A stretch of 64,000 nt of DNA from Rhodanobacter sp. FW104-R8 (GTDB lineage: Bacteria > Pseudomonadota > Gammaproteobacteria > Xanthomonadales > Rhodanobacteraceae): NCBI RefSeq assembly GCF_001617365.1, contig NZ_LVJR01000015.1:1-64000 (forward strand), read 5' to 3'. The notes under the pieces were generated by a model. It had not been told where the DNA came from. It made no database searches and was given only the letters and a program-made list of their open reading frames with translations. A program made the translations under genes and the position numbers. Below, piece by piece: positions 52,873 through 57,921 of the stretch (positions are counted from its first letter, which is position 1; each line of letters starts with the position of its first letter).

Positions 52873-53925
52873 TCACTGCAGATACGGCGCCGCGATCGCC
52901 AGCGCGGTACGGTACGGTTCCGGGTCGTTGCGGTTGCTGAGCAGGATCACGGTGAGGTGTTGCTGCGGCCAGCGCACGATCACATTGCGGAAGCCGATGC
53001 TCTCGCCGGAGTGCCACAGGGTGTCGCCGGTGATGCGCCAGCCGTAGCCGTAGCTGGCTTCGTACGGCTCGCCGGTGACCTTCACGTGCGGGCTGAAGGC
53101 GAGTTTGCGCGAGGCCGCGCTGAGCAGGCGGTCGTCGTACAGCGCGGCGTCCCACTTGGCCAGGTCGTCGATCGAGGAGTAGATGCCGCCGTCGCCGCGG
53201 GTGGCGCTGGTGACGCTCTGGTCGGTGCGCGTCCAGCGGCCGTTTTCCTCGCTGTAGCCGTAGGCGCGATTCGCCACTTCCGGTCCCTTGCCGTGCTCGT
53301 AGAGCAGGGTGTGACCCATGTGCAGCGGCTGGAAGATACGCTGCTGGAGGTACAGCGGCAGGCTGATGCCGGAGGCGCGCTCCACCACCAGGCCGAGCAG
53401 CACGTAGCCGGAGTTGCTGTAGCGGTACGCGGTGCCTGGCGTGAAGTAGGTCTTCGGCGTGGCCGACAGCAGGCGCAGCACATCGTCGTCGCTGACCTGC
53501 GCAGTGGTGCCGGGGGCGATCAGGTCCTCGTAGTCGACCAGGCCGCCGGTGTGGCTGAGCAGCTGGCGCAGCGTGACGGCCGCGGTACTCTCCGGCAGCG
53601 TGGGCAGCCAGCGGCGCACCGGGTCGTCCAGGCGGAGCCGGCCGTCCTCGGCCAGCAGCAGGATCGCCGCGGCGGTGAACTGCTTGCTCACCGAGGCGAG
53701 CCGGTAGTTGGTCGTGGGCGTGGCGCGCTCGTTGTCCTCGAGATTGGCTAGTCCGTAGCCGCGGCGGACGACCGGCTTGCCGTCCTTGAGTACCAGCAGC
53801 GAGGCGCCGGGCACGTCGCCGGCGTAGCGCTGCATCATCGCGCCGGTGGGGTCTACCGGCCTGGTGCCGGAGGCGCAGCCGCCGAGCAGCAGGATCACGG
53901 CGAAGATGGCAGATCTCTTGAACAC
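52873..53925 (-). CDS. Beta-lactamase-fold serine hydrolase lipoprotein
   Basis: This 350-residue lipoprotein (lipobox LLGGC) is of the class C beta-lactamase/AmpH/D-aminopeptidase family. The nucleophile motif is SVSK, the Tyr motif YSNSG and the third motif HSG. Members act as D,D-peptidases or esterases rather than true beta-lactamases. A REP pair lies just upstream of its start. Confidence 0.88.
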   Translation of the reverse strand: MFKRSAIFAVILLLGGCASGTRPVDPTGAMMQRYAGDVPGASLLVLKDGKPVVRRGYGLANLEDNERATPTTNYRLASVSKQFTAAAILLLAEDGRLRLDDPVRRWLPTLPESTAAVTLRQLLSHTGGLVDYEDLIAPGTTAQVSDDDVLRLLSATPKTYFTPGTAYRYSNSGYVLLGLVVERASGISLPLYLQQRIFQPLHMGHTLLYEHGKGPEVANRAYGYSEENGRWTRTDQSVTSATRGDGGIYSSIDDLAKWDAALYDDRLLSAASRKLAFSPHVKVTGEPYEASYGYGWRITGDTLWHSGESIGFRNVIVRWPQQHLTVILLSNRNDPEPYRTALAIAAPYLQ

Positions 53926-53954: not shown

Positions 53955-54068
53955 CCGTAGGAGCCCGCTCGCGGGCGATGCTTTTGGAGTCGGGATGACC
54001 AGACGTTCGTCTGCTCAGAGCCGGGATTCGCAAAAGCAAAAGCATCGCCCGCGAGCGGGCTCCTACGG
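53955..54068. repeat. REP family 1 inverted pair
   Basis: The arms start CCGTAGGAGCCCGCTCGCGG (53955) and end at 54068 in inverted orientation. The spacer contains one copy of a 31-bp unit (GGGATGACCAGACGTTCGTC...) that is present twice in the neighbouring pair at 54811-54954. Confidence 0.88.
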
Positions 54069-54096: not shown

Positions 54097-54981
54097 TCAT
54101 TGCACCGGCACGTCGTAGAGCGTGTGCGGCGTGGGTTCCGGCACGAGGGTGTAGTGCCACCATTCCATCGGATAGTTGCGGAAGCCCTCGCGGGCCATCG
54201 CATCGCGCAGCAGCAGGCGGTTCGCGCGCTGCGCGGCAGTGATGCCGGGTGCGTCGGTGTGCGCGCGCACGTCGAAGAAGTCGAAGTCGGTGCCCATGTC
54301 CAGCGGCTCGCAACGCGTGCCGTCGGCGGCGCAGCGCTGCAGCGTGAGGTCGATGGTGGCGCCGCGGCTGTGGCCGGAGACCGGCGCGATGTAGTCGCCG
54401 AGCAGCTTCGACTTGTCCAGCGTGGGGTAGTGTTGCGGCTTGGTGCGCTGGTCCCCAAGATCGTGTGCCCAGCGCACGAAATGCGCCACTGCGCGAGCGG
54501 GGCGATAGCAGTCCCAGATCTTCAGGCGCAAGTGTTGCGTGCGCAGTTCGCGCTCGACCCGCGCCAGCGCCTCGGCCACCGGGTGCAGCAGCAGGCACTT
54601 CGGCGCCAGGTAGCCGTCCACCGGCGCGCCCACGAAGTTGTCGTGGCCGGCGTACTTGATGTCCTCGGCGATGTCCGGCACCAGCGTGCGGATGTCGACC
54701 AGGTTCGCGGCGGCGGCGGTCTTGGCGGGCGACAGCACGGGCGCCTGCTCCGCGTGGGCGATTCCGCCGGCGGCGGCGAGCAAGGCGAGCACGAACAGAT
54801 ACCCGGTTGTCGTAGGAGCCCGCTGGCGGGCGATGCTTTTTTTGCCGGGATGACCAGACATTCGTCTGTTGAAAGCCGGGATGACCAGACGTTCGTCCGT
54901 TGAGAGCCGGGATTCGGAGTTCGCAAGAGCATCGCCCGCCAGCGGGCTCCTACGGGTAGTCATGGGCGGACGGGTGATCAT
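54097..54981 (-). CDS. VanX/DdpX-like D-Ala-D-Ala dipeptidase with REP-encoded insert
   Basis: This 294-residue zinc dipeptidase has SGHSRGATIDLTL (zinc His and Asp) and MEWWHYT (catalytic Glu and zinc His), with DCYRPARAVAHFV upstream, the M15D pattern. It hydrolyses D-Ala-D-Ala. The start at 54981 overlaps the upstream stop (ATGA). After MITRPPMTT the next 48 codons are a REP family 1 pair in frame. The text then resumes with TTGYLFVLALLAAAGGIAHAEQ, a perfect signal peptide once the insert is removed. Whether the product is still exported, or starts internally at GTG (residue V of FVLAL), is open. Confidence 0.85.
   Translation of the reverse strand: MITRPPMTTRRSPLAGDALANSESRLSTDERLVIPAFNRRMSGHPGKKSIARQRAPTTTGYLFVLALLAAAGGIAHAEQAPVLSPAKTAAAANLVDIRTLVPDIAEDIKYAGHDNFVGAPVDGYLAPKCLLLHPVAEALARVERELRTQHLRLKIWDCYRPARAVAHFVRWAHDLGDQRTKPQHYPTLDKSKLLGDYIAPVSGHSRGATIDLTLQRCAADGTRCEPLDMGTDFDFFDVRAHTDAPGITAAQRANRLLLRDAMAREGFRNYPMEWWHYTLVPEPTPHTLYDVPVQ
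54811..54954. repeat. REP family 1 pair inserted in frame in a signal peptide
   Basis: It is exactly 144 bp (48 codons), bounded by CGTAGGAGCCC and its inverted copy GGGCTCCTACG. The spacer holds two and a fraction copies of a 31-bp unit. No stop codon is present in the coding orientation, so the host frame is kept. Confidence 0.92.
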
Positions 54982-56723
54982 GGGCAGGTTCCGACGCGGC
55001 GAAAGTCGAGGTCTTCGTAGTCGGAGCTGAAGTCGCCCAGCGGGTCGAGCTTGGCCATGCGCAGGGTAATCGGCTGGTCGCCGGTCGCGGCGTTGAAATC
55101 CAGCCACGCGTCGAGGTCAGCCGAATCGTCCCAGTGCACGAAATAGCGCTCGCCCAGGCGCATCATGGTGCCGGCCAGCGACGGCGATTTCGCGGCGGCG
55201 AAGTGCATCCTGCCGTCGCGCGGGCACAGCGTGATGTCGCCGAACCACGGGTCGCGGTATTGCCCGCTCCAGCGCGCCAGTTCGGCCGGCGAGGCCGGCT
55301 GCTGCGCCGAGGTGTCCGGCGCACCCGAGGCGGCCGGCCGCTGTTTCGCCTGCTGCTCCAGCGCGCCGGCGTACCAGTCCACGCCGCGGCGGTCGCCGGG
55401 TGCGGTGAAGTGCTTCATCAGCACTTCGCCGAGTACGGTGCGCGCGTCGCCCGCGTCGCCGTTGATCATGAACACGAAGCCGTTGCCGCGATCCGGCAGC
55501 AGGGCCAGCATCGAGTACATGCCGTTCAGCGTGCCGGTGTGCCATACGCTCCACTGGCCGTCGGCGTCGGCCATGCGCCAGCCGTAGCCGTAGGCCATCA
55601 CGTGGGTGTTGTCCCGCTTGCGGCGCTGCGTGGAGACCGGAATCAGCATGTGCGGCGCCTGCAGCACGTCGCGCTGCACCGGCGACAGCCACTTCAGCTG
55701 AGCCGTGGTGGGCGCCAGCCAGTTGCGCGCCCACGCCAGCATGTCGGTGAGGTCGCAGCGGATGCCGCCGGCAGCGGCCGAGGTGATCGCGGGAATCGCG
55801 GCGGCCTCGGGGATCGCCACGTTGCGGCCGCCGTCGCGGCGATGCGGCGTGGCCACGTCGCCCACCGTGTCGCGGTTCCACGCGCCGACCTGGCAGCGAT
55901 CCAGGTGCAGCGGCTCGAACACCTCGCGGCGCATCAGCGTTTCGTAGGACGCGCCGCCCGCGGCGGCCGCCACTTCGCCGGCCACCACGTAGAGCAGGTT
56001 GTCGTACTGGTACTGCGAACGGAAGCTGTAGCCGGGCTTGATGTAGGCAAGGCCGTGGATGATGTCGGCGCGGGTGAACGCGTTCGGCTCCGGCCACAGC
56101 ATCAGGTCGCCGCCGCCTTCGGGCAGGCCGCTGGAGTGGGTGAGCAGGTCGGCCACGCGCATGTTCGCGGTGACCCACGGGTCGTGCATGCGGAAGTCCG
56201 GCAGGTATTTCGTCACCGGGTCGTCCCAACGCAGCTTGCCGGCATCGACGAGACGCCCGAGCAACGCGGTGGTCATCGCCTTGCTGTTGGAGGCGATCTT
56301 GAACAGCGTGCGCGGGGTGATCGGCTGGCCCGAGCCGGCGACGGTTTCGCCGGCGGTGCGCACGTAGACGACTTGCCCGTTCTCGATCACGCCGACGGCG
56401 ATGCCGGGCAGGTGGTAGCGGGCGATCGCCGCGTCGACGATCTTGTCGTAGGTTGGGTTGGCGGTTTGGGCGGCGACGACCGGGACGGCGAGCAGAAGCA
56501 GGAGTGCAAGAGCACCCAGCCTCAGCCCTCCCCTGCGTTGCAGGGGAGGGAGCAGGGTGCAGGCCTCTTGTTGCCCGGTGCCGCGCTTCTGGCTCCTCCC
56601 CCTGCTGGCAGGGGGAGGTTGGGAGGGGGTAGCTCGAGCGTGCGGAAGAGCACCCCTCCCCAACCCTCCGCTGCGTGGCAGGGGAGGGAGAGAAAGTGGG
56701 CAGCTCGCCTCAGTGTTGCGCAT
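54978..56723 (-). CDS. Beta-lactamase-fold serine hydrolase with DUF3471-like domain
   Basis: The catalytic domain has SNSK, YDN (YQYDNLLYVV) and HTG (VWHTGTLNG). A C-terminal beta-rich DUF3471-like domain follows (ARWSGQYRDPWFGDITLCPRDG). The signal helix LGALALLLLLAVPVVAAQ has no Met close to it. The only upstream ATG in frame (56723) lies inside the end of the dipeptidase gene and gives 62 extra residues encoded by three palindromic repeats. The start codon is therefore uncertain; a non-ATG start near the helix is possible. Probable role: D,D-peptidase or D-aminopeptidase in the envelope. Confidence 0.82.
   Translation of the reverse strand: MRNTEASCPLSLPPLPRSGGLGRGALPHARATPSQPPPASRGRSQKRGTGQQEACTLLPPLQRRGGLRLGALALLLLLAVPVVAAQTANPTYDKIVDAAIARYHLPGIAVGVIENGQVVYVRTAGETVAGSGQPITPRTLFKIASNSKAMTTALLGRLVDAGKLRWDDPVTKYLPDFRMHDPWVTANMRVADLLTHSSGLPEGGGDLMLWPEPNAFTRADIIHGLAYIKPGYSFRSQYQYDNLLYVVAGEVAAAAGGASYETLMRREVFEPLHLDRCQVGAWNRDTVGDVATPHRRDGGRNVAIPEAAAIPAITSAAAGGIRCDLTDMLAWARNWLAPTTAQLKWLSPVQRDVLQAPHMLIPVSTQRRKRDNTHVMAYGYGWRMADADGQWSVWHTGTLNGMYSMLALLPDRGNGFVFMINGDAGDARTVLGEVLMKHFTAPGDRRGVDWYAGALEQQAKQRPAASGAPDTSAQQPASPAELARWSGQYRDPWFGDITLCPRDGRMHFAAAKSPSLAGTMMRLGERYFVHWDDSADLDAWLDFNAATGDQPITLRMAKLDPLGDFSSDYEDLDFRRVGTCP
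56526..56688. repeat. Three CT-rich palindromic elements in a gene 5' end
   Basis: Inverted repeats lie at 56526-56550 (CCCTCCCCTGC/GCAGGGGAGGG), 56595-56618 (CCTCCCCCTGC/GCAGGGGGAGG) and 56664-56688 (CCCTCCGCTGC/GCAGGGGAGGG, preceded by ACCCCTCCCCAA). The first pair of arms is identical to the one in the lpd linker. Confidence 0.88.
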
Positions 56724-57921
56724 GGCGCTCGACCTCGCGCCACACGCGCAGCAGGTTGCCGCCCCACAGCTTGGCGATGTCGGCGTCGCTGAAACCGGCG
56801 CGGCGCAGTGCCGCGGTGACGTTGCGGGTTTCGCTGGCGTCCTTCCAGCCGGTGATGCCGCCGCCGCCGTCGAAGTCCGAGGCGAGGCCGACGTGGTCGA
56901 TGCCGGCGACCTGCACCATGTGCCGGATCTGCTTGACGTAGTCGTCCAGCGTGGCCAGCGGATATTTCTTCTGGATCTCGGCCATGCCCGCGTCCATCTC
57001 GGGCCGGTAGTCGTCGTTGTCGCTGTCGTACTCTTTTTCGCCGGCCTGTTTCGCCACGCGTTCCTGCAGCGCCTTCTCGGCAGCCTCGCGGCCGGGGTCG
57101 TGCTTGAGGAATTCCTTGTACGCCACGGCCTGCACCACGCCGCCCTTGGCGGCGATCGCGCGCAGCAGGTCGTCCGGCAGGTTGCGCGGGTGGTCGAGCA
57201 CGGCGCGGGCGCCGGAATGGGTGGCGATGATCGGCGCGTCGGATACCTTGAGCGCTTCGCGTACGCAGCGGTCCGAGGCATGCGAGATGTCGACCATCAT
57301 GCCGAGCTGGTTGGCGCGTTCCACCACAGCCCGGCCGAACTCGCTCATGCCCTTGTCGCCGGCGCTGTTCATCGCCGGCTCGCCGTGCCCGGTGTCGGGC
57401 AGCGAGCTGCTGCACAGGTCGTTGTTGCCGACGTGGACCAGGCCGACGGAGCGCGCGCCGCGGTCGAACGCGGCGTCGAGGCGGCGGATGTCGTGGCCGA
57501 GCGAGTAGGCGTTCTCGATCTCGATCGTGGCCGAGAGCAGGCCGGCCTCGTGGTTGGCGACCAGTTGTCCGGGCGTGGTGGCGAGGCGGATGCGGTCGGG
57601 ATACATCATCAGCATGCGGCCGATGCCGTCGTATTTCCGGTTGGCCTGTTGCACCGCCTTGGCGTAGCCGGCGGCGTCGAGCTGGTGCTGCGGCACCCAG
57701 ATCACGAAGAACGCCGCGTTGAGGCCGCCGCGTTCCATCTTGCCCAGGTCGACCAGCAGCCGGGTGTCGTGCCCGACGTCGAAACGCGGCTCGCCCATGT
57801 AGTTGAAGGGGATGTCGACGTGGGTGTCGATGGTGATCGGCGGATCCTGCATGGCCCGCGCGTGCAGCGCGACGGGCAGGGCCAGGGCGGCGAGGATGGC
57901 GAGGCGGGCGGTCAGGCGCAT
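56710..57921 (-). CDS. Membrane dipeptidase (M19, renal dipeptidase type)
   Basis: This 403-residue exported zinc dipeptidase has a signal peptide (MRLTARLAILAALALPVALHA). The metal-binding DTHVDIP, ENAYSLG, VGLVHVGNNDL, MVDISHASD, IIATHSGARAV and HVGLASDFDGGGG cover the M19 pattern. M19 enzymes accept dipeptides with a C-terminal D-residue, which suits murein fragments. The start overlaps lysA by 10 bases and its end overlaps the next gene by 14. Confidence 0.92.
   Translation of the reverse strand: MRLTARLAILAALALPVALHARAMQDPPITIDTHVDIPFNYMGEPRFDVGHDTRLLVDLGKMERGGLNAAFFVIWVPQHQLDAAGYAKAVQQANRKYDGIGRMLMMYPDRIRLATTPGQLVANHEAGLLSATIEIENAYSLGHDIRRLDAAFDRGARSVGLVHVGNNDLCSSSLPDTGHGEPAMNSAGDKGMSEFGRAVVERANQLGMMVDISHASDRCVREALKVSDAPIIATHSGARAVLDHPRNLPDDLLRAIAAKGGVVQAVAYKEFLKHDPGREAAEKALQERVAKQAGEKEYDSDNDDYRPEMDAGMAEIQKKYPLATLDDYVKQIRHMVQVAGIDHVGLASDFDGGGGITGWKDASETRNVTAALRRAGFSDADIAKLWGGNLLRVWREVERHAQH

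Follow-up and report, generated by a model that had tools for sequence, protein, structure and literature searches.

The window, a stretch of 64,000 nt from Rhodanobacter sp. FW104-R8, contains an M15 peptidase gene in which a REP pair lies in frame between the start codon and a predicted signal-peptide core. The features of the locus are as follows.

54978 to 57281, minus strand: upstream ORF, whose 3' part has the look of a beta-lactamase-family serine hydrolase by eye
54978 to 54981, minus strand: ATGA, in which the stop codon of the upstream gene overlaps the M15 start, as read from the sequence
54097 to 54981, minus strand: M15 peptidase gene, D-Ala-D-Ala dipeptidase-like, 294 aa, with a REP-encoded N-terminus
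54928 to 54954, minus strand: 5' REP arm in gene orientation, CGTAGGAGCCCGCTGGCGGGCGATGCT, assigned by inverted repeat and dispersed copies
54838 to 54927, minus strand: spacer of 90 bp between the REP arms, from the sequence
54811 to 54837, minus strand: 3' REP arm, translated as SIARQRAPT after KK, assigned by inverted repeat and sequence
54751 to 54810, minus strand: predicted signal-peptide hydrophobic core with an AHA cleavage-type end (residues 58-77), by sequence and hydropathy screen
53957 to 54066, no strand assigned: second REP pair, family A, in the ordinary 3' position 30 nt past the M15 stop

On the minus strand, the ATG of the M15 gene (54981-54979) overlaps the TGA of the upstream gene (54980-54978). 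The N-terminus reads MITRPPMTT, followed by 48 repeat-encoded residues (residues 10-57, 48 codons from 54811-54954), by TTGYLFVLALLAAAGGIAHA (residues 58-77) and then by the mature domain, and the overlap, the leading residues and the coordinates of the 48 codons reported in an earlier note on this DNA were all confirmed. The Pfam domain PF01427 (M15) matched residues 91-293 (E 3e-42), beginning after the repeat. The same note called the gene VanX-like; this holds as a family resemblance only, since the protein missed the NCBIfam VanX equivalog cut-off (191.9 vs 320 bits). A putative basic n-region, hydrophobic core and AXA-type end were read for the N-terminus by hydropathy and by eye, and the basic residues directly ahead of the core come from the 3' REP arm (54811..54837).

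The two 27-bp arms are perfectly complementary and read GTAG...CTAC, which is a GTAG-type palindromic unit, and the pair spans 144 bp. The folding energy of the strand around the arms was -95.8 kcal/mol (z -6.5), and none of 200 shuffled sequences was as good. The spacer contains two 31-bp tandem units (54844-54874 and 54875-54905; by eye, plus strand) and the only in-frame start codon within the element, an ATG. In the genome, a 3.72-Mb draft of 124 contigs, the element gave 137 matches on both strands, so that most arms were counted twice; most family A copies were nearly identical to one another, and only one other match was full-length, at 84% identity. The perfect inverted arms and the dispersed copies identify a real REP pair, as the earlier note had proposed. 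The GTAG-end palindrome, the high copy number and the many inverted pairs are shared with the GTAG-type REPs and dimers (BIME/REPIN-like) of Stenotrophomonas and Xanthomonas. The pair sits inside an open frame that is kept across relatives and is hence not extragenic. REPs can lie within genes according to the accessible part of PMC3733652, which contradicts the note's description of them as strictly intergenic; the finding therefore weakens extragenic position as a criterion, not the assignment to REPs.

The repeat families of the compared genomes were defined as follows.

Family A: GTAGGAGCCCGC, the REP family of the window
Family B: GTAGGAGCGCACCC
Family C: GGAGCGGCTTCAGCCGCG
Family D: CTTCCCCCGC
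Family E: the short 7-base motif CCCCTGC, a less certain family defined by its motif alone

The family A set consisted of 36 stretches around copies plus the window (37 stretches, yielding 34 pairs), and the family B set of 40 of the at least 41 pairs among the matches listed. Family B had 2-42 sites per strand in 8/8 genomes concerned and family D had 2-33 exact sites in 5/8, while the family C motif is absent from this genome (3 matches vs 5 for the reversed control).

The stretch from the upstream stop to the mature domain was examined in 105 M15 loci (91 distinct), comprising the best 80 of 394 named loci and 25 in-genus loci, with the window's included and a weak 26th left out. The C-terminus of the upstream ORF adjoined the M15 gene in 56 of the 91 distinct loci, and 36 had the start at -1 or +2 of the upstream stop, 30 of these in frame. 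A detected inverted repeat was present in 13 of the 36, and all 13 were in frame and free of stops, carrying family A (six), B (two) or D (five) repeats; all six out-of-frame starts belonged to loci without a repeat. The repeat-bearing loci are mostly from Rhodanobacter, with one from Frateuria (L014) and one from Dyella (L015). The same site in relatives thus either holds a REP pair, from one of three sequence families, or is empty: 13 of 26 overlapping-start M15 loci had no detected repeat, three of which appeared remnant-like by eye. The relatives lacking the repeat have short ordinary signal peptides, such as MRRPLAAIALLG... in L084, in agreement with the earlier reading that the in-frame pair lengthens the signal peptide. 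The repeat-encoded residues RRSPLAGDA ... SIARxRAP were common to the window, L082 and L001 at the same place, and altered forms occurred in L002, L005, L009 and L096. The note had named such sharing by relatives, at conserved protein positions, as grounds against its reading; it was found in part, and indicates that the insertion is old or recurrent.

In this genome, open frames through family A pairs led to two further genes, encoding FlgI (Pfam E 7e-144) and CcmH (E 8e-48). Both start at the upstream stop (TGATG for FlgI and GTGA for CcmH), and both Pfam matches begin after the repeat. From the genus, 30 FlgI and 30 CcmH loci were sampled. Eleven FlgI loci had a -1/+2 start and a detected inverted repeat, 10/11 being in frame and stop-free, and their repeats were of family A (four), family E (four) or without a family label (three, including L164, which reads like A). 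FlgI locus L149 was out of frame by its -1 TTG, with an ATG at +3 that is in frame by length alone, and L153, also out of frame, contains undetermined bases. The CcmH loci with a neighbour were all in frame (29/29), and 13/29 had no insert and a signal peptide of 22-23 residues such as MMRALLHVLLVALLTFAGMAHA. The 13 with a -1/+2 start and an inverted repeat (families A six, B three and C four) were in frame and stop-free without exception, and with a detected repeat the signal peptide had 44-63 residues. In a second CcmH set of 46 loci, nearly all outside Rhodanobacter, 41 had a -1/+2 start and 41/41 were in frame; four of these also had an inverted repeat (L307, L316 and L347 clear, L342 weak), in frame and stop-free in each case. 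The first reading implied one recent accident in this strain, which would fit the still perfect arms; repeats at the same site in relatives, and those in FlgI and CcmH, already contradict it, and it was rejected as extremely improbable.

Two side observations were made at these genes. In L347 a further kind of repeat, CGTCATTCCCGCGC with its complement, stands in frame ahead of the CcmH core, and in L019 it lies between the genes. FlgI loci L158-L161, L166 and L168-L172 have N-termini of 78-84 residues in frame with no clear REP, some of them alike between species, and these may represent ancient remnants or an extension with a function.

For M15, FlgI and CcmH together, 40/41 repeat-bearing loci with a -1/+2 start were in frame and stop-free, as were all 36 that the script had assigned to a repeat family. 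Loci were also grouped by gene and script-assigned family, frame playing no part in the selection, and the differences in stop-to-mature length within these sets were multiples of three in 20/20 cases. By chance at one third each, the probability is ~3e-10 if the differences are independent, which they are not fully, so that the value serves only as a guide. The REP pairs at large do not keep frame: the lengths modulo 3 were 16/30/28 for the 74 pairs of this genome (A 11/11/12, B 5/19/16) and 17/19/17 for 53 pairs of the related genome G008. Of the frames through the 74 pairs, 230/444 were open; about half being open, an unselected insert would be both in frame and open in ~1/6 of cases (product). 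The presence of a -1 'start' is by itself weak evidence, since any base except C ahead of TGA provides one. The orthologous intergenic control 3' of M15 held a repeat in just 2/26 loci, too few for use: one was found downstream of the M15 stop in the window (30 nt) and in L002 (31 nt), and no REP lay within 450 bases after the M15 stop in the other 24.

All 74 pairs of this genome (34 A, 40 B) were put through one uniform screen, which required an open frame, a start overlapping the upstream stop and a hydrophobic core shortly beyond; M15, FlgI and CcmH were the only genes recovered. The screen of G008 covered 53 pairs and 9 singles in 60 stretches, from 100 of 151 copies listed, and its own M15 copy lay outside these stretches. 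One weak row out of the 62 elements passed (L301, a single element with a TTG start; hydropathy 1.92 vs the limit of 1.9) and was judged spurious by eye. The 26 candidate ORFs with open-through REP frames in this genome were mostly spurious GC-rich frames by eye; one, the plus-strand ORF at L125, is real by Pfam, but an ATG directly follows the REP there, for which reason its repeat was treated as extragenic. In both genomes, 14 rows had an overlapping start without a hydrophobic core. Thirteen of these ORFs were scanned, the frame of the window's second REP pair being left out, and 12/13 gave no Pfam match; the thirteenth matched DUF502, and by eye its start is probably after the repeat.

The left arm begins 15-31 nt past the start codon in 28/34 family-assigned in-frame loci (M15 11/13, FlgI 6/8, CcmH 11/13). 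By arithmetic this is ~11-30 nt past the upstream stop, in agreement with the published placement of REPs near gene 3' ends (PMC12306157 and PMC8266576, in the text available), described as close (<20 bp) in the available part of PMC3733652. Overlaps of the ATGA and TGATG kinds are linked to translational coupling, as stated in the accessible text of PMC6728339.

We consider it likely that a REP at its usual place after a stop codon is translated by way of the overlapping start and survives in the tolerant n-region of a signal peptide. The same position, an unbroken frame and the lack of stops recur in three genes and several repeat families. The REP pair, two inverted GTAG-type palindromes, would occupy its usual spot shortly past the upstream stop, and the downstream gene would start by overlapping that stop (ATGA, GTGA or TGATG), so that the same DNA becomes downstream coding sequence from about codon 6-11. 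Inserts that are in frame and stop-free would be retained, in this genome seen only in signal-peptide n-regions, where the added length would be tolerated and removed at export, leaving the mature protein unchanged. The element would thus lengthen the n-region by roughly 20-60 translated residues. A customary REP site, turned by the overlap into the n-region of the next gene, is the simplest mechanism and follows from the position data. We infer that translation begins at the overlap start, that signal peptidase cleaves the product and that filtering by survival is the reason for the pattern.

One alternative is that the repeats are intergenic: the start codon of the exported protein would lie within the REP or beyond it, and the reading frame that is open from the overlap would be a coincidence. 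In-frame starts were surveyed at the M15 loci (53 of the 105, 39 distinct), and at the FlgI and CcmH loci, with +3 starts taken only when in frame (FlgI L162 and L167). A later start with a Shine-Dalgarno-like match follows the element in all five CTTCCCCCGC (family D) M15 loci and in 4/12 FlgI loci with a detected inverted repeat (L148, L159, L163 and L164), and a start with such a match lies inside the element in L006, L089, L015, L155 and L157, so that translation may begin later in those loci. In three repeat-bearing M15 loci (L019, L023 and L046) a -1/+2 start is absent and the length is out of phase, which also favours the intergenic reading, and in the accessible part of PMC3733652 the N-terminal REPs found in P. 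putida, C. koseri and S. maltophilia were for the most part judged probably non-coding. Against it stand the 40/41 in-frame loci and the 20/20 frame-keeping differences, given that ordinary pairs do not keep frame. Further, 10/26 repeat-bearing M15 and CcmH loci (L005, L007, L082, L096, L177, L186, L190, L194, L197 and L205) have no in-frame ATG, GTG or TTG inside the element and no later start with a Shine-Dalgarno-like match by a simple pattern. The intergenic reading is accordingly improbable, and the multiples of three and the ten loci without an internal start favour read-through. As to the choice posed by the earlier note between a tolerated extension and an internal restart, the frame and start data support the former, and translation may still restart at the spacer ATG in the window's strain. 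In M15 loci L006, L012, L013, L014 and L089, the last part of the CTTCCCCCGC repeat resembles GGGGGAAGG (GGAGGAAG in L014), and judging from its sequence it could itself act as the Shine-Dalgarno site of a start that follows directly.

The ratio dN/dS was calculated for ten chosen pairs of loci, the L158-L161 pair being without a REP. It was 0.01-0.27 in the mature part (0.17-0.25 in the M15 mature domain in four pairs) and 0.23-0.91 in the N-terminal part in nine of the ten pairs, one being undefined. The mature parts are thus constrained, and the N-terminal parts less strongly. The N-terminal values are compatible with a translated, relaxed sequence, and those near 1 fit an untranslated one equally well. 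By parsimony on a 26-genome tree, the family label changed 9, 10 and 7 times; many nodes are weak and the counts are rough. This suggests repeated gain, swap or loss of REP pairs at these sites.

Such turnover also bears on the possibility that the hairpin is kept by selection at the coupled junction as an exchangeable regulator, which we regard as unlikely. The label changes on the weak tree would suit it, as would the differing repeat families at the same narrow position of the same genes in different lineages and the fact that three of the four longest among the 34 family A pairs of this genome are the signal-peptide ones. It is doubtful, in the same degree, that the hairpin sets the ratio of downstream to upstream yield, protects the upstream message or slows the ribosome as the signal peptide emerges. 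Empty sites are frequent, at 13/26 overlapping-start M15 loci and in the 13/29 CcmH loci with the short form, indicating that the element is dispensable, and the recurrence would equally follow from a target-site preference. Translation and survival in a tolerant n-region remains the preferred explanation. In a further reading, n-regions at coupled junctions would be a standing landing zone for REPs in Rhodanobacter and its relatives, with the translated hairpin as an interchangeable module, gained, swapped or lost, that sets the ratio or timing of export; we put this forward as speculation with little likelihood.

The presence of a RAYT is an association of GTAG REPs and no strict requirement. 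The RAYT transposase domain (Y1_Tnp, PF01797) gave no match in this 124-contig draft assembly, and a RAYT in the same genome as the present source of the REPs was accordingly dropped. Y1_Tnp was found in 36/45 genomes of the genus (E <= 0.001), this genome being among the nine without it. The mobiliser may have been lost, may be missing from the draft or may have been active in an ancestor. G008, G043 and G032, close relatives by the tree, had three to seven Y1_Tnp matches each.

Several elements of this picture are already known from the accessible part of PMC3733652, namely intragenic REPs, in-frame Rickettsia elements and differing REPs at one recB site. The presence of a palindromic repeat, in frame, in the gene of a functional protein is a feature that the M15 case shares with the Rickettsia palindromic elements (RPE). 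The RPEs add tens of residues to proteins, and N-terminal RPE-1 elements are reported as expressed in work cited there. They differ in the bacteria and the repeats concerned; here, the screen of this genome recovered n-regions at overlapping starts only. In the same source, recB of Xanthomonas campestris and X. oryzae carries different REPs at about the same site in the two species. The present cases differ in lying at signal peptides; RecB is a cytoplasmic enzyme. The GTAG REPs described near gene 3' ends in the literature available also differ, in that the pairs here are in frame at signal peptides of the same genes in many species. For the long signal sequences of autotransporters, the accessible sources describe no mobile DNA repeat as encoding them. 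No report of REPs in signal peptides, in Rhodanobacter or in ccmH was found by a search that most subscription papers lay beyond.

At these loci, REPs that extend into the N-terminus have a very high probability of being translated, a point that touches on a doubt not settled in the literature. They also give a rule, in which the usual REP position, an overlapping start and a tolerant signal peptide together predict surviving coding REPs, and they caution against the trimming of such starts by gene finders. Natural variants of ccmH and flgI that carry or lack the repeat allow tests of the effect of a REP on a coupled gene pair.

In the window, the true start of the upstream gene probably lies within the ORF at 54978..57281. 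This ORF and a second one at 52873-53925 flank the M15 gene, and by eye both resemble beta-lactamase-family serine hydrolases.
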